NCBI GenBank assembly: GCA_018899795.1
Contig: JAHIHJ010000322.1
Span: forward strand, 1 to 5,163
Direction: 5' to 3'
Source: Methanobacteriota archaeon
GTDB taxonomy: Archaea > Halobacteriota > Methanosarcinia > Methanosarcinales > Methanoperedenaceae
Length of the DNA: 5,163 nt
The notes beneath the pieces are model-generated. The model saw only the letters and a list, made by a program, of their open reading frames with translations. It had not been told where the DNA came from and made no database searches. The position numbers and the translations under genes are program-made. Positions 2 to 5,163 of the stretch are shown here, piece by piece (the stretch's first letter is position 1; each line of letters opens with the position of its first letter).

Positions 2-175
2 TCAGATTTTTCCAGCGCTCCTTGCAGTTCTTTTAAGAAGTTATGCCAGAAAGTAAGAAACAAAGTGGCAAAAGACCTGCTTGCTCTACTGCGAACTCAT
101 GCACGACGGCAGGGAGTGTCAACAGAGACGCTGATAAACCTTTGGCTCCGAGAAAAGGTGACGAAAGTGGCGTAG
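2..175 (+). CDS. C-terminal part of a ribbon-helix-helix (CopG/BrnA-like) antitoxin, 5' end outside window
   Basis: An open frame enters from the left edge and runs 57 codons to TAG at 173-175. Its last ~40 residues read as a short strand (KVRNKVA), a helix (KDLLALLRTHARRQG), a turn and a second helix (STETLINLWLREKV). This is the strand-helix-helix layout of ribbon-helix-helix DNA-binding antitoxins, and the GVSTETLINLWLREK ending resembles CopG/BrnA-type antitoxins of type II toxin-antitoxin systems. Such proteins usually bind their own promoter and neutralise a toxin encoded next to them; BrnT-type toxins normally precede the antitoxin, which would put the toxin to the left of the window. 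The part before the strand contains two Cys and looks like a variable linker. The gene converges on the minus-strand operon. The family call rests on pattern recognition of a fragment; it could be a stand-alone RHH regulator. Confidence 0.62.
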   Translation, partial: SDFSSAPCSSFKKLCQKVRNKVAKDLLALLRTHARRQGVSTETLINLWLREKVTKVA

Positions 176-238: not shown

Positions 239-1288
239 TCAAAAAACCGCGCCGCGCATCTTCACTGCTGTGCTGTAGCCCACTGCGCCGCCTATTATGC
301 CCCCTATGACGCTTATTCCTATGTTCATCCAGGCATACCATGGAGCATAATAAACATGCCACACAACAGGAGCGAACAGGAAATAGAAAGTCCAGTAAGC
401 CACCATGCTCCTCGCTATTCCATATACGATCGCAGTGGAACGCCTGTCAGCATAATCCATCCGGAACAGGAAAACAAGCACATCTACGACCACACCTTCC
501 ATCATGTACCACCCAAGCCAGACCGTGATGTTTGTTCCCCATATTATCATGCCCACTAAGAGGTCTGTGGTAAACAGCAGCGTGGCTGTGCCAGGTTTTC
601 TCACAAGCTGCAGCGCCACGATCATCAGTGCTGTCGTTGGTATAGTAGAAAGCAGTCCGCCAAATGGTCCAAGGAGATCATTAAATGTCTGCCAGAACCA
701 TCTGAAAACCACGCCAGTAAGGGCGGCAAGCAGAGCTATTGTGATTAGATCAACCGTTGTGAATCTCTCAAGAATATTAAATTTCCCAAAAGCCACCAGT
801 GCAAAAACAATTATAATTATGCTTGCCAGCACAGTACCATATATCGCCCATGAGGGGGGTGGAATTATCTCAATTTCGTGGGAAAAAGTTTCTGTATGCG
901 GGCCTGCCGAATCAACATAGTTAACTTTGATCTCAAAAGAGGATTTCTCTCTAAGGGGGATAGAGTCAGGCGGCTTTACACTGAATACTATGGATATTGA
1001 CTCACCCGGCATAATTTCCTCAAAGGAGTTAATAATCGTATTTGTTTTTGTTACATCATCCTGCAAACCCAGACTGTGAGGCACCTTGATTTCGATACTT
1101 ACATTTTTTAGAGGTTCACTTCCATGATTTTCAAGGATTATTTTCCCCCTCTCAAGAGTGCTGCCCGCCACAATCACATCAGGAGCATAGGCATGATCCT
1201 TCATGGGGATCACCATTTCGATATTGGCACTCCCTCCGGCAGCAGCGCTTAGCATGAGAAGCAGCACCGCTGCAAGAATCATTTTCAA
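239..1288 (-). CDS. NEW3/COG1361-like ectodomain fused to an ECF S-component-like (YkoE-type) membrane domain
   Basis: The protein is 349 aa when started at TTG 1288. Residues 1-20 are a signal peptide or first membrane helix (MKMILAAVLLLMLSAAAGG). Residues ~22-145 form a beta-rich extracellular domain with the NEW3/COG1361 signature: ILENHGSEPLKNVSIEIKVP, then a MPGESISIVFSV strand pair; N62-V-S is a glycosylation sequon. A membrane helix follows at ~149-168, then a six-helix membrane domain (~178-198, 207-229, 234-253, 258-276, 284-310, 318-342). That domain resembles ECF-transporter S components: six helices, an AxxxA motif (A185, A189) in its first helix, and VRKPGTATLL at ~229-238, like the RKPGAA segment of YkoE/PF09819 proteins. 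S components bind vitamins or metals and normally need EcfA/EcfT partners, none of which is in this window. Start choice: GGAGG lies 5 nt before TTG, and TTG overlaps the previous stop as TTGA. ATG 1282 and ATG 1306 are alternatives (347 and 355 aa). This is the last gene of the operon. The fold is well supported; the substrate is unknown. Confidence 0.72.
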   Translation of the reverse strand: MKMILAAVLLLMLSAAAGGSANIEMVIPMKDHAYAPDVIVAGSTLERGKIILENHGSEPLKNVSIEIKVPHSLGLQDDVTKTNTIINSFEEIMPGESISIVFSVKPPDSIPLREKSSFEIKVNYVDSAGPHTETFSHEIEIIPPPSWAIYGTVLASIIIIVFALVAFGKFNILERFTTVDLITIALLAALTGVVFRWFWQTFNDLLGPFGGLLSTIPTTALMIVALQLVRKPGTATLLFTTDLLVGMIIWGTNITVWLGWYMMEGVVVDVLVFLFRMDYADRRSTAIVYGIARSMVAYWTFYFLFAPVVWHVYYAPWYAWMNIGISVIGGIIGGAVGYSTAVKMRGAVF

Positions 1289-2217
1289 TGCTTCCTCCTC
1301 GTCCATAACACAACTGCTGCAGTTATTAAAATCACTGCGATTACAGGCAGGGGGATCTCGGATTTACCAGACAAGCTCTGCTCATGAATGATTATATTAT
1401 CTTCTCCCTGACCATCATATTCTACTGCTAAAATTGCATTTAATGGATGGAGATATGCCTCGCCTCCTCTTTCAAACCTGACAATGTTTTCCGCAGTAAT
1501 ATCCTTCTTGACATCAAATTCATCAATATCAAAATACGAACCGTTTTTTCCCTTCGCTACATCTTTACCCAGAAAGCGAGAGTTGAAATAGAGCATGTCA
1601 TCTTCCCTGGGAGTGCCAGCTATCTGCACGGTCCATAAAGCAGCATTCATGGCATTTTCAGGTGCATCCCCAAAAGATACCGCCATTTCATCTTTTTTTG
1701 TTGTATAAGCCAGGGCATAGTTCCCCTCTGTGATCCAGAATCTTGTGAACCTATCCTGTTGCTCATAAACTACAACAAGTACAACTCCGTAGGGACCGCC
1801 ATTTGGATTTTTATAGGAAACACTCACATTAACCTCGCTCTTCTTGATTTTCCGGCTCACATTATAAGCATACTGCGCAGTGCCAAAAGCAGCTACATAA
1901 TCCGGTTTCTCCCTCACTCCAAGGCTTTCATTGTTCAACCTGACATCCAGGGTATCTCCTTTATTATAGTTCCACACGGGCACATAGAGTCTTGCAAATT
2001 TGATTTTTGCATCCGGGATATTAAAATGCTCTTCATAGGGATTCTCCTGCGTATATCCATGCCCTCCAGCCACGTAAACACTACCGTGGATTGTGCCTTC
2101 TGCAATCGTATATAAAGGAGTGCCCTCGCCCCTCCATCCTCTTTCTCCATCCATGGTTAATATTATTATTATTATTGCAATAATTGCGATTCCAAGGAAA
2201 ATGATAAGCTTTTTCAT
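1285..2217 (-). CDS. membrane-anchored DUF3344 protein
   Basis: The protein is 310 aa. Residues 4-21 are a very hydrophobic, isoleucine-rich helix after MKK (signal peptide or uncleaved anchor; no clear cleavage site). Residues ~35-280 are a beta-rich extracellular domain of the DUF3344 type. The call rests on blocks shared with the paralogue at 4075-5043: an early HG.V.. segment (44-49), KIKFARLYVPVW (71-82), GVVLVVVYEQQD..TRFWITEG (144-165), a LYFNS strand (209-213) and NAILAVEY (260-267). Sequons at N96, N119, N130 and N225 suggest glycosylation outside the cell. The C-terminus has a short IPLP turn, a helix (~289-305) and the basic tail RRKH, a tail-anchor layout resembling archaeal CTERM sorting signals, though it does not match PGF-CTERM exactly. 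DUF3344 has no established biochemical role. The ATG overlaps the permease stop by 4 nt (ATGA) and has no good Shine-Dalgarno sequence (nearest GAGG is 13 nt away), so it probably depends on translation of the permease. Confidence 0.8.
   Translation of the reverse strand: MKKLIIFLGIAIIAIIIIILTMDGERGWRGEGTPLYTIAEGTIHGSVYVAGGHGYTQENPYEEHFNIPDAKIKFARLYVPVWNYNKGDTLDVRLNNESLGVREKPDYVAAFGTAQYAYNVSRKIKKSEVNVSVSYKNPNGGPYGVVLVVVYEQQDRFTRFWITEGNYALAYTTKKDEMAVSFGDAPENAMNAALWTVQIAGTPREDDMLYFNSRFLGKDVAKGKNGSYFDIDEFDVKKDITAENIVRFERGGEAYLHPLNAILAVEYDGQGEDNIIIHEQSLSGKSEIPLPVIAVILITAAVVLWTRRKH
1294..1298 (-). promoter_or_regulatory. ribosome binding site deciding a TTG start
   Basis: GGAGG on the minus strand, inside the end of the preceding DUF3344 gene, sits 5 nt before TTG 1288 but 11 nt before the next ATG (1282). 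The upstream ATG at 1306 has no Shine-Dalgarno sequence in front of it. Spacing therefore favours TTG, which also gives the N-terminus a Lys directly after the initiator, as expected for a signal peptide. Confidence 0.65.
2162..2176. repeat. (ATT)5 triplet run inside a signal helix
   Basis: Five tandem ATT triplets (AAT on the minus strand) encode a run of isoleucines within residues 12-20 of the downstream DUF3344 protein. As an in-frame triplet tract, slippage would change the hydrophobic length of the N-terminal helix rather than the frame. It is probably only codon bias in a poly-Ile segment. Confidence 0.6.
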
Positions 2218-3413
2218 ATCTGCCGCAGTGCCTCAAGTGGATTCAATTTCGCTGCCCTTCTTGCAGGATATAAGCCAGAAACAACCGACAGAACAAGAGA
2301 GATAATGAATCCGGCAACAAGAAGCGATGGGGTGATAACAGTAATGTGGGTGGATTGTAATCTTTCTCCCATTTCACCAAGCTGGCTGACCAGGAAGGGT
2401 TTGCCCAGAATATCGATCATCATAGAAAAAGCAGATCCCAGCAAAATGCCTAATATCCCTCCCATAACCCCTATGATCATACTTTCGGCAAGGAACATCT
2501 TCATGATATCAAAATCAGATGCTCCCAGAGCTTTTGACAATCCTATTTCCTTTGTACGCTCGTAAACCGAGATTGTCATTGTATTTATTATCATTAATCC
2601 CCCAACGATAAGCGATATCCCTGAGAAAAAACCCAGAACAAGGGTTATTGCAGCCATCAGGCTGTTCACTGCATCGATTTCATCCTGAGCAGAATACCCC
2701 TTCAATCCAAGTCTCTCGATCTTAGTTCTCACAGAAGAGGTAAATACCGGGTCATCCACTTTAACAAAACCGCCGTCATAAGCCTCCTTTTCATCCATTT
2801 CCCTTGCTTTGTTAATGTCAAGCATCACCTGATTATCGTGCTCCCCTCCTGTGGGTTTCATAACACCAACTATTCTGAATACCGCAGTTTTATCCCTCGG
2901 ACGTCCTTCCTCTCCGTATAATCTGAGCATGACAGTGATCTCATCGCCAGGTTTAATATTTTCTATCTTTGACAACTTATCGGCAGCATCTCGCCCAAGC
3001 ACGACCTGATTGGTGTTTTCCTGAAACCAGTCTCCTTTTTCCAGATGCAGGTTCTGAACATGGTTATAATCTTTAGTAACTCCTTTAAAAGTAAGATAGG
3101 TCTTGTTCATCGTTACATATGGGTCTTTTACGTACTGAGCTGCCAGCATAACATGCTCAGTTCTCCTGATATCATTTATTTTTGAATCAGTCAGCAGAAT
3201 CGTGCTTCCTTTATCTGATCCTGCCGATACCTCTATTATTGTTAGATCATGGGATGCTTTGATCTTATCGACTGCCTGAATTCGCAAGCCTTCTCCCAGG
3301 GAGGTTACCCCAATGACTGCTGCAACCCCTATAGCTATTCCCAGCACTATGAGAAATACCCTCAGTTTTTTCCTGGCAAGCTGCCTGAATGCTAAGGAAA
3401 ACAATTCCCTCAT
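2214..3413 (-). CDS. MacB/FtsX-type ABC transporter permease
   Basis: The protein is 399 aa, a normal length for the MacB_PCD plus FtsX architecture. A short cytoplasmic amphipathic N-terminus (RELFSLAFRQLARKKLRVF) leads into TM1 (~18-38). An extracellular domain follows at ~40-245. Then come TM2 (~252-280), TM3 (~311-335) and TM4 (~362-383). The cytoplasmic loop after TM2 carries the family hallmark YERTKEIGLSKALGAS (284-299), which contacts the ATPase. The protein ends with the typical LYPARRAAKLNPLEALR motif. There are no cysteines and no lipobox. It should dimerise and pair with the ATPase encoded just upstream; the gene overlaps that stop by 4 nt (ATGA) and has its own strong ribosome-binding site. 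In bacteria this fold moves lipoproteins, drugs or peptides by mechanotransmission, or signals to surface hydrolases (FtsEX). In a single-membrane archaeon an outer-membrane partner is not expected, so the neighbouring surface proteins are the likely clients or partners (inference). Confidence 0.93.
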   Translation of the reverse strand: MRELFSLAFRQLARKKLRVFLIVLGIAIGVAAVIGVTSLGEGLRIQAVDKIKASHDLTIIEVSAGSDKGSTILLTDSKINDIRRTEHVMLAAQYVKDPYVTMNKTYLTFKGVTKDYNHVQNLHLEKGDWFQENTNQVVLGRDAADKLSKIENIKPGDEITVMLRLYGEEGRPRDKTAVFRIVGVMKPTGGEHDNQVMLDINKAREMDEKEAYDGGFVKVDDPVFTSSVRTKIERLGLKGYSAQDEIDAVNSLMAAITLVLGFFSGISLIVGGLMIINTMTISVYERTKEIGLSKALGASDFDIMKMFLAESMIIGVMGGILGILLGSAFSMMIDILGKPFLVSQLGEMGERLQSTHITVITPSLLVAGFIISLVLSVVSGLYPARRAAKLNPLEALRQI

Positions 3414-4075
3414 TGAATCCTCCCGTCCATTATGCTGATCACTCTATCAGCTGTATGTGCTACATCCATATCATGGGTTACCAGCATAATGGTTTTTCCC
3501 TCTTCTTTGTTTAAGCGTCTCATCAGGTCAAGTATGGTTTTTCCTGTCTTAGAGTCGAGATTTCCCGTAGGTTCATCTGCAAGGATAAGCATTGGATCAT
3601 TGGCAAGCGCCCTTGCTATAGCAACACGCTGCTGCTCACCACCTGAAAGCTCTGTGGGAAGATGGTTGGCGCGGTTTGTTAAGCCTACAGACTCAAGCAG
3701 CATCATCGCCCTCTCCCTTCTCTTGATCCATGGAGTTTTATTGAAATACATCGGGTACTCGATGTTCTGCGCAGCAGTCATGGCTGGCATAAGATTAAAT
3801 GTTTGAAACACAAACCCGATTAATTTTCTGCGCAGCAACACCAGCGAGGAGTTATTTTTGAAATCAACCCTGCTGCCATTTAGAGATACCTCTCCCCTCG
3901 ATGGTGAATCAATGCATCCAAGAATATATAAAAGCGTGGATTTCCCGGAACCCGATGGGCCAATAACCGAGATAATCTCACTTTCCTCGATGGTAAGATT
4001 TACGCCTTCCAGAGCAACTACTTTTTCTTTGCCTTGAGAGTAATACTTTGTTAAATCCATCGTATTAACCATCAT
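3410..4075 (-). CDS. LolD/MacB-type ABC transporter ATP-binding protein
   Basis: The protein is 221 aa, a single complete nucleotide-binding domain of standard LolD length. All catalytic motifs are intact: Walker A GPSGSGKST (39-47, K45), Q-loop Q91 in FVFQTFNLMP, ABC signature LSGGEQQR (143-150), Walker B MLILADEP (162-169, D167 and catalytic E168), D-loop GNLDSKTG (171-178) and H-loop H201. The ADEPTGNLDS wording and the FQ-FNLMP Q-loop are typical of the LolD/MacB/FtsE subgroup that serves FtsX-fold permeases, matching the next gene. It acts in the cytoplasm as a dimer, powering the permease by ATP hydrolysis. The ATG at 4075 shares one base with the previous TAA (TAATG) and is preceded by GAGGAG 8 nt upstream; a second ATG follows directly and a third at codon 6. 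Confidence 0.96.
   Translation of the reverse strand: MMVNTMDLTKYYSQGKEKVVALEGVNLTIEESEIISVIGPSGSGKSTLLYILGCIDSPSRGEVSLNGSRVDFKNNSSLVLLRRKLIGFVFQTFNLMPAMTAAQNIEYPMYFNKTPWIKRRERAMMLLESVGLTNRANHLPTELSGGEQQRVAIARALANDPMLILADEPTGNLDSKTGKTILDLMRRLNKEEGKTIMLVTHDMDVAHTADRVISIMDGRIQ
3419..3424 (-). promoter_or_regulatory. ribosome binding site of the permease gene
   Basis: GGGAGG on the minus strand, within the last codons of the ATPase gene, is 5 nt before the permease ATG at 3413. It is strong and well spaced, so the permease can be initiated independently as well as by coupling through the ATGA overlap. Confidence 0.75.
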
Positions 4076-5043
4076 TAGCGATTCTCCTCTATGTACAGTA
4101 TTGCATTAGTAAGCATCATATAATCGTAGTTATCCTGTACTGCGGCAAAATTATTTGATGGCTTCATATAATTGGAAACATCCCGCTCATCAACTCCAAT
4201 CTGGACGATATCGTTTGAAAAATACACATCACTCCAGATTCCGCTCTCGTATCTGAACACCAATTTAAGCAATTCCTTCAGAAATGAAAAGCTGCCAAGT
4301 CCGCTCTCCTCTTCGTTAAAATAGAGCCTGTTGTGGGCAGTTTCTCCACTTGCCGTATATCCCGCTGATGGAGCTGCGGTTATTAAGGAAGCTTTTTTTA
4401 TATTTTTTAATTCTACGTCTCCGTTAAAGTATATCTTACTGGTTGCCATCCCTGGAGTGATGCCGTAGTCTGCATAGAGCATATCAGCACCCTCATTGAC
4501 CCAGTACTCAACAAGCGGGCAATCCTGGCATTCGTATATTACCAGTAATCCGATTCCCTGCGTGCAAAACGTGCTTCCATCCGCATCTGCATTTTTAATA
4601 GCTGCCTGGTAGTTTTCGCTAACACGATTGGTCACATCATATACATTAACGCCTGAAAAGAAATCGTACAACCCCACAAATCCTTTGTTATCAGTATAGT
4701 TAGCAGCCTCTGTCAGAATAACATCATCATCGATTACCTCCATAGTTGGGTACACGCCTATGGTTCCGTCCTTGCTCCAGACATAGTATGCATATAGTCT
4801 GGCGAGTTTAACTTTTGCGTTCATAGGCATGCCGACATCGAAGTTAACAGTGTATGTTTCATTGTAATTTATCACACCGCTATATCTGCTGTCCCCAGGC
4901 GTGAAAAATACCTTGCCGTGAACTTTATCATGAAATACCGTATTAAGCGGTTTATCGCCTGCATACGAGCCAGATGCACTGGATACAAGCAATAAAATCA
5001 GAGCAAAAACAATCTTAAAAAGTGTACGTGATCTCATCTGCAT
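4075..5043 (-). CDS. secreted DUF3344 protein
   Basis: The protein is 322 aa from ATG 5043. The N-terminus is a clear signal peptide: RSRTLFK, a hydrophobic stretch at ~11-20, then SSASGSYAG with likely cleavage near residue 28. The rest (~30-322) is beta-rich and has no second membrane helix or lipobox, so the product is probably released or held by protein contacts. It is a paralogue of the protein at 1285-2217: HGKVFF (42-47), AKVKLARLYAYYVW (76-89), GIGLLVIYECQDCPLVEYWVNEG (163-185, aligning with its FWITEG region), RLYFNEEESG (239-248) and NAILYIEE (313-320). Unlike the paralogue it has three cysteines (C160, C172, C175), including a CQDC pair suited to a disulfide or metal site. Sequons lie at N61 and N115. 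A longer frame opens at ATG 5094, but GGGAGG 6 nt before ATG 5043 and the signal peptide right after it favour the shorter form. It overlaps the upstream CARDB gene by 29 nt. Function is unknown for the family. Confidence 0.82.
   Translation of the reverse strand: MQMRSRTLFKIVFALILLLVSSASGSYAGDKPLNTVFHDKVHGKVFFTPGDSRYSGVINYNETYTVNFDVGMPMNAKVKLARLYAYYVWSKDGTIGVYPTMEVIDDDVILTEAANYTDNKGFVGLYDFFSGVNVYDVTNRVSENYQAAIKNADADGSTFCTQGIGLLVIYECQDCPLVEYWVNEGADMLYADYGITPGMATSKIYFNGDVELKNIKKASLITAAPSAGYTASGETAHNRLYFNEEESGLGSFSFLKELLKLVFRYESGIWSDVYFSNDIVQIGVDERDVSNYMKPSNNFAAVQDNYDYMMLTNAILYIEENR
4084..4089 (-). promoter_or_regulatory. ribosome binding site of the ATPase gene
   Basis: GAGGAG on the minus strand, inside the last codons of the upstream DUF3344 gene, is 8 nt before ATG 4075 and 11 nt before the adjacent second ATG. 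It favours the first ATG. Confidence 0.65.
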
Positions 5044-5163
5044 TATTGTCCTCCCTTGACTCTCTAACATTGTTTTTTTCATCCACGACCACACGTATGA
5101 TATGGTCTCCTCTCCCCACTGCTATGGAAAGTTTTTCAATGGTAGATGTTCCCCCTTCCAGCG
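5015..5163 (-). CDS. C-terminal end of a CARDB-domain surface protein, 5' end outside window
   Basis: A minus-strand frame enters from the right edge and ends at TAA 5015-5017, giving 48 complete codons. It reads as the last strands of a CARDB (cell adhesion-related, Ig-like) domain: a short GGTSTIEKLSIAVGRGDH stretch, the strand HIIRVVVDEK, the hallmark turn NNVRESREDNN (like the D-x-x-x-V-x-E-S-x-E-x-N-N motif of the family), and a final ADEITYTF strand. The domain is extracellular and usually repeated in archaeal and bacterial surface proteins; in methanogens it often accompanies DUF3344. The product ends right after the domain, so it has no C-terminal anchor. It overlaps the downstream DUF3344 gene by 29 nt in another frame, so the two are surely co-transcribed. 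The rest of the protein cannot be seen. Confidence 0.85.
   Translation of the reverse strand, partial: LEGGTSTIEKLSIAVGRGDHIIRVVVDEKNNVRESREDNNADEITYTF
5050..5055 (-). promoter_or_regulatory. ribosome binding site deciding the DUF3344 start
   Basis: GGGAGG on the minus strand is 6 nt before ATG 5043 and 12 nt before a second ATG at 5037. Nothing comparable precedes the in-frame ATG at 5094. This places the start at 5043, directly in front of the signal peptide. Confidence 0.75.

Follow-up and report, generated by a model that had tools for sequence, protein, structure and literature searches.

The window (the whole stretch of DNA that was analysed, 5,163 nt) carries six open reading frames on the minus strand, packed as tightly as in an operon:

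5015..5163, minus strand: 3' end of a CARDB-domain gene, truncated at the window edge (CARDB, E = 9.3e-06)
4075..5043, minus strand: DUF3344-A (D1), with a signal-like N-terminus (alignment; PF11824, E = 2.2e-62 on the longer frame 4075-5094)
3410..4075, minus strand: ABC ATPase of the MacB/LolD type (ABC_tran, E = 2.9e-32)
2214..3413, minus strand: ABC permease (alignment; MacB_PCD ectodomain, E = 7.8e-28; FtsX, E = 5.8e-24)
1285..2217, minus strand: DUF3344-B (D2) (alignment and hydropathy; PF11824, E = 2.2e-35)
239..1306, minus strand: fusion protein with a signal-like N-terminus, an ectodomain and an S-component
854..1234, minus strand: Ig-like ectodomain of the fusion (residues 25-151)
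242..766, minus strand: S-component domain of the fusion (residues 181-355)

Adjacent frames overlap by 29, 1, 4, 4 and 22 nt when the longest starts are used, and it is on these overlaps that the view of the genes as made together rests. The last overlap shrinks to 4 nt with a TTG start at position 1288, probably the conserved start of the fusion, which gives a protein of 349 aa. The overlapping set of gene families put forward in the original prediction was borne out: the minus-strand frames are present and Pfam agrees on the family calls, with both DUF3344 matches far above the cut-off. DUF3344 is a Pfam family with no assigned function, and its name turned up in just two papers of the full-text collection searched. 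Hydropathy gave DUF3344-B membrane-like segments at its N-terminus and C-terminus, and in the alignment DUF3344-A does without the C-terminal tail carried by its relatives in ANME-type loci. The predicted CARDB domain is also there, but probably not as a separate CARDB-only gene, since the fragment shares 47.9% identity with the end of a 586-aa protein of a relative (L001) that joins DUF3344 and CARDB. It is probably the end of a DUF3344+CARDB surface protein, so that, judging by this match, the window would show parts of three DUF3344 proteins. Outside the operon, positions 2-172 (+) hold the convergent 3' end of a frame resembling CopG/BrnA-type antitoxins, with sub-threshold scores for both BrnA (24.1 against a cut-off of 60 bits) and CopG_antitoxin (18.3 against 28).

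The proposed fusion of a NEW3-like domain to an S-component was upheld by fold prediction for both halves, although each falls below its Pfam cut-off (NPCBM_assoc/NEW3, 17.5 against 24.4 bits; ABC_cobalt, PF09819, 23.3 against 25.2 bits). Folded as a single protein, the S-domain was predicted to adopt the S-component fold, and the sole S-component in its list of fold matches was 5edl, about 14% identical, which we take to be the thiamin-binding YkoE. PF09819, presumably the YkoE-type family, is precomputed for many relatives of the fusion, one of which (L031) clears its cut-off at 26.7 bits. PF01891 (CbiM/NikM) gave no row for the fusion at E<=1. As modelled, the fusion is an S-component fold with its own Ig-like ectodomain.

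The neighbouring ATPase and permease have the domains of a type VII ABC transporter (MacB superfamily), namely MacB_PCD, FtsX and an ABC ATPase, encoded by two separate genes and not as a single MacB protein. The hydropathy profile of the permease has five peaks, two of which abut, against the four membrane segments of type VII.

Scanning GTDB genomes with alignment A1 yielded 35 loci. Most are from Methanosarcinales, three are of Methanomicrobia type (L015, L019, L027) and four come from MAGs, whose labels are Helarchaeota (L029), Firmicutes (L031), Proteobacteria (L034) and delta proteobacterium (L035). Some contigs end within the locus; a DUF3344 cluster was present in 33 of the 35, an EcfT cluster in 25 and the gene for the MacB permease in 17. 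DUF3344-B stands directly 5' of the fusion in 32; the exceptions are L029, where EcfT lies between them, and L034 and L035, which have no DUF3344. EcfT and EcfA are absent from the window itself. The identity of EcfA was established on L006 and L034, whose double ATPases clear the ECF_ATPase_1, ECF_ATPase_2 and cbiO cut-offs, and Pfam assigns the EcfT of L021 to CbiQ, although it stays under the NCBIfam CbiQ equivalog cut-off. In Methanosarcina, the MacB-type ATPase remains beside DUF3344-A and the permease beside DUF3344-B, with the ECF genes between them or distant. In one Methanosarcina locus (L040, 8362-10180, minus strand), a DDE transposase gene splits the ATPase gene, and the permease elsewhere looks whole. 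A DUF2117 gene adjoins the permease in 8 of the 35 loci, including L021 (6052-7227, minus strand). In L006, a small histidine-containing frame (7185-7397, plus strand) lies between the fusion and a DUF3344+CARDB gene; it has no Pfam or NCBIfam match above cut-off, and the frame in the same gap of L001, L005, L046 and L047 looks conserved by eye. No riboswitch was found in the seven sources scanned, nor a shared operator among the loci compared.

We surveyed the class to which G014 belongs, the Methanosarcina genome that holds L021; it comprises 237 genomes, many of them drafts. The E-value cuts were of our own choosing: 1e-5 for the fusion, 1e-100 for DUF3344-A, 1e-40 for EcfT followed by 1e-76 to separate type 1 from type 2, and 1e-60 for the permease, placed in the gap that complete matches leave between 1e-108 and 1e-41, so that weaker permeases are uncounted. 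The fusion was found in 39 genomes and EcfT type 1 in 40, the two together in 38 of the 39 fusion genomes (G045 has only the fusion; G038 and G048 have only EcfT type 1). In 28 of these 38 the two genes are 931-2175 bp apart, in three they are separated by 33 kb to 1.1 Mb, and in seven they lie on different contigs. The permease subfamily (E<=1e-60) occurs in 24 genomes, each with the fusion on the same contig at a distance of 945-3916 bp, and no permease of this subfamily was found in 15 of the 39 fusion genomes, which are drafts and in some cases incomplete. The DUF3344-A subfamily (E<=1e-100) is present in 23 genomes, every one among the 24 with the permease, at up to 15 kb from it in 15, at 40 kb to 1.1 Mb in three and on a different contig in five. 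Outside this class few genomes carry the fusion: 3 of 232 in the class of G012, and 1 of the 10 in that of the Firmicutes-labelled MAG.

These counts mark the ECF core as the constant part, and the MacB permease and DUF3344-A, neither of which turned up outside core-bearing genomes, as an add-on. The fusion and DUF3344-B are a conserved pair, and their genomes nearly always also have the matching EcfT and fused EcfA pair. The original prediction had tied the transporter pair to DUF3344 and the fusion, and this association stands: the fusion is near the permease in 24 of 24 genomes, and the transporter pair was not seen to occur without DUF3344 and the fusion in most genomes. What found no support was the placing of the MacB pair at the centre of the set, given the 15 fusion genomes in which its permease was not found; the centre is the ECF importer, composed of DUF3344-B, the fusion S-component, EcfT and the fused EcfA pair.

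Neighbouring genes were examined in 45 genomes: every fusion genome of the class but G046, a contig-edge fragment (38 of 39), together with G009, G012, G017, G018, G020, G023 and G024. Eight of them (G001-G004, G034, G014, G023 and G024) have a NikR_C gene no more than 6 kb from the permease, the DUF3344-A or the S-component gene; the other 37 have none at that distance, though 44 of the 45 have one somewhere. CobN was seen nearby in at least four (G015, G016, G094 and G020), three of which are related archaea, its distance to the permease or fusion being 1.5-5.3 kb. Among the matches listed, CobN occurs somewhere in 38 of the 45 and was not seen nearby in about 41. A rough chance expectation at these distances, which assumes 2 NikR and 4 CobN per 3 Mb and ignores shared descent, is below 1 of 45 for NikR and about 1 of 45 for CobN. 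Methanosarcinia genomes are rich in CobN paralogues, with at least 12 matches in one genome, and some CobN open frames among the matches listed reach 1,900-2,150 aa, lengths far beyond those of the ECF-linked copies.

The window holds no NikR-family gene. In L034 and L035 the order is NikR, TonB receptor, radical SAM protein, EcfA pair, EcfT and a bare S-component, and the NikR of L034 clears two NCBIfam equivalog cut-offs. A related small radical SAM gene accompanies ECF genes in these two loci (L034, 7137-7847; L035, 3434-4144) and in L029 (3-284), which bear Helarchaeota or Proteobacteria labels. At the four positions that we take to be the nickel ligands of NikR, L034 and L035 retain all four and L036 has one changed; in the ANME-type loci, three of the four are lost in L001, L002, L006 and L047, and all four in L005. 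This loss suggests that the ANME-type protein may sense something else, possibly as a regulator with a new ligand. The ligand-poor genes lie by the permease (L001, 16095-16427; L002, 6683-7153; L005, 10005-10475; L006, 12215-12703; L047, 4932-5348).

The Firmicutes-labelled contig, a label taken here as given, has the following genes in a single run: three DUF3344-type genes, ExbB, DUF2149, EcfT, DUF3344-B, the fusion, the EcfA pair, CobN, ChlID and ChlI. One DUF3344 protein of this contig bears SLH domains, which indicate that it is placed at the surface. The contig (L056-L062) spans 139.6 kb and holds four CobN, several ChlID-type genes and two fusion-type ECF operons, as well as CbiM, BtuR, FmdE and Opp-like ABC genes; its gene content suggests an island for metals or tetrapyrroles.

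The EcfT profile also picks up, in the surveyed class, a second EcfT type that scores more weakly (23 rows, with E from about 1e-46 to 1e-53). CobN lies 2137-4140 bp from this EcfT in all 13 copies checked, 12 archaeal and one in the Firmicutes-labelled MAG, one match being a contig-edge fragment. It is also beside the second-type EcfT in L070 and L071, the other 9 of the 23 rows falling outside the count. Five archaeal loci of this sister system encode CobN, a 520-553-aa protein, an EcfA pair, EcfT, an ATPase and a permease; the permease is ABC-2-like by eye, and the ATPase/permease pair is downstream of EcfT in 5 of 5. The S-domains of the 520-553-aa proteins align with that of the fusion (hhalign, 96.7%, 184 columns, one template). 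Taken singly, two of the five sister fusions (L068 and L070) are matched by the fusion profile and the other three are not at E<=1; their kinship rests on the joint alignment, where the E-value is for one template. Fusions of an ectodomain with an S-component, joined to an ECF engine, frequently also to a chelatase and frequently to an additional ABC pair, thus seem to form a small family, with the window's system as its DUF3344/MacB branch.

Overall, we give roughly even odds (about 0.5) to the explanation that the operon encodes the capture unit of an ECF importer, together with an accessory MacB-type pump, for a metal-bearing substrate. Its parts differ in strength. That the system is an ECF importer is highly likely. 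The nickel regulators or metal chelatases near the system in some relatives argue that a metal-bearing compound is probably imported; for a metal complex or metallo-tetrapyrrole as the substrate, the chances fall slightly short of even. From the architecture and co-occurrence observed above we infer this substrate class as well as the role of the MacB pair, which we tentatively, and with clearly less confidence, propose to be a hand-over helper. Surface DUF3344 proteins would bind a scarce metal-bearing compound, for instance a metallo-tetrapyrrole or a chelate of nickel or cobalt, and hand it on to the fusion. The loaded fusion would dock with EcfT and the EcfA pair, ATP would drive the import, and in some relatives a CobN/ChlID-type chelatase would then handle the metal. 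The MacB pair, in the weaker part of the scheme, might drive release or hand-over of the compound by type VII mechanotransmission outside the membrane. That a type VII pair can pass molecules on to a partner outside has a precedent in YbbAP-TesA, according to the available part of a report on it (PMC12646458).

The second ABC pair of the sister system, seen in all five loci read, indicates that import and export pairs recur together. This fits a shuttle in which the MacB pair exports an emptied ligand or else a chelator, which the ECF half brings back in its loaded form. We consider such a shuttle improbable: no chelator-biosynthesis genes were noticed among the genes identified in the mapped loci, a set that takes in a minority of the unlabelled ones, and the permease was not found in 15 of the 39 fusion genomes.

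NCBIfam comparisons bear on another reading, in which the MacB pair would act like LolCDE, extracting or placing DUF3344 surface proteins independently of ECF transport. The best row for the permease is indeed lolCE, at 109.3 bits, but its cut-off is 362.45; the best rows for the ATPase, LolD and MacB, are likewise under cut-off (LolD, 240.1 against 307.75 bits), and the MacB scores were 100.2 and 225.3 against 966 bits. The ATPase adjoins DUF3344-A in the window and many relatives, and the DUF3344-A subfamily tracks the permease in 23 of 24 genomes; against this, DUF3344 genes without this permease are plentiful (for example, L010, L014, L016 and L027), and the permease is near the fusion in 24 of 24 genomes. 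We regard a Lol-like role as doubtful.

Similarly, we think it unlikely that the system is an ordinary vitamin importer, with an S-component that binds thiamin or something similar and with incidental metal neighbours. The fold match to 5edl, the thiamin-binding YkoE, and the PF09819 assignments among relatives speak for it. Speaking against it are the NikR-family or CobN genes found nearby in several lineages, and the CobN that adjoins the sister system. The leaning of the original prediction towards a surface machine for adhesion or S-layer assembly, without small-molecule uptake, has very little chance of being right: S-component and EcfT are near-constant companions, despite the SLH-bearing DUF3344 protein and the entry of DUF3344, in the part of a fibrillar-adhesin study available to us, in a table of clusters of ambiguous function (PMC9210967).

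Returning to the ECF importer with a capture unit, its closest known relatives include Group I ECF transporters with a YkoE-type S-component, with which it shares the S-component fold and, in relatives, a CbiQ-type EcfT and a fused double EcfA. It differs in the fusion of the S-component (about 14% identical to 5edl) to an Ig-like ectodomain, in the added DUF3344 surface proteins and, in a subset, in the MacB-type pair. CbiMNQO/NikMNQO resemble it in that its EcfT and EcfA are related to CbiQ and CbiO, and NikR-family genes neighbour some relatives, but the window's S-component is not CbiM, as there is no PF01891 row. MacB, LolCDE, FtsEX and YbbAP-TesA share the MacB_PCD+FtsX permease, the separate ATPase and the encoding alongside outside proteins; here, however, the partners are DUF3344 proteins and an ECF S-component, and the MacB, LolCE and LolD cut-offs are missed.

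The Firmicutes-labelled relative, in turn, recalls hmuYRSTUV, the heme-metal salvage system of Bacteroidota, by combining CobN, ExbB and DUF2149 (compare hmuS, U and V), which the sections of the source at hand name as hmuYRSTUV genes (PMC10434189). It has an ECF importer and DUF3344 where Hmu has HmuY and HmuR, and ChlID is present. Its CobN looks cytoplasmic by eye, whereas HmuS, according to the consulted part of its description, has membrane segments at both ends and a methionine-rich insertion (PMC12583661). The window contains no CobN/HmuS, ExbB or DUF2149. A more specific scheme, which we regard as a long shot, would have the type VII pair strip a tightly bound metallo-tetrapyrrole or a nickel or cobalt complex from DUF3344 surface receptors and feed it to the S-component, with CobN/ChlID acting inside, as an archaeal counterpart of heme-metal salvage; if true, it would give some unexplained archaeal CobN proteins a job.

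In the portions of the literature on DUF3344, ECF, CobN, NikR, YkoE, HmuS and type VII ABC transporters that we consulted, we found no description of this system, and a PLSDB plasmid search gave no match. The closest published set, likened by gene description only and from part of the source, is an island on the Methanoperedens plasmid HMp_v1, which brings together CbiMNQO, NikR, DUF3344 and EcfT/EcfA and was called a possible biotin transporter by its authors (PMC9674854). Large nickel and cobalt proteomes have been reported for such organisms, as stated in the part of the report available (PMC2667541). The analysis links DUF3344 and, through some relatives and the sister system, part of the unexplained CobN proteins with a defined importer. 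Methanosarcina has this importer and is open to gene deletion, so that its substrate and role can be put to the test. If the proposed explanation is true, an ECF transporter would here be served by surface proteins dedicated to capture and by a helper of the MacB fold.
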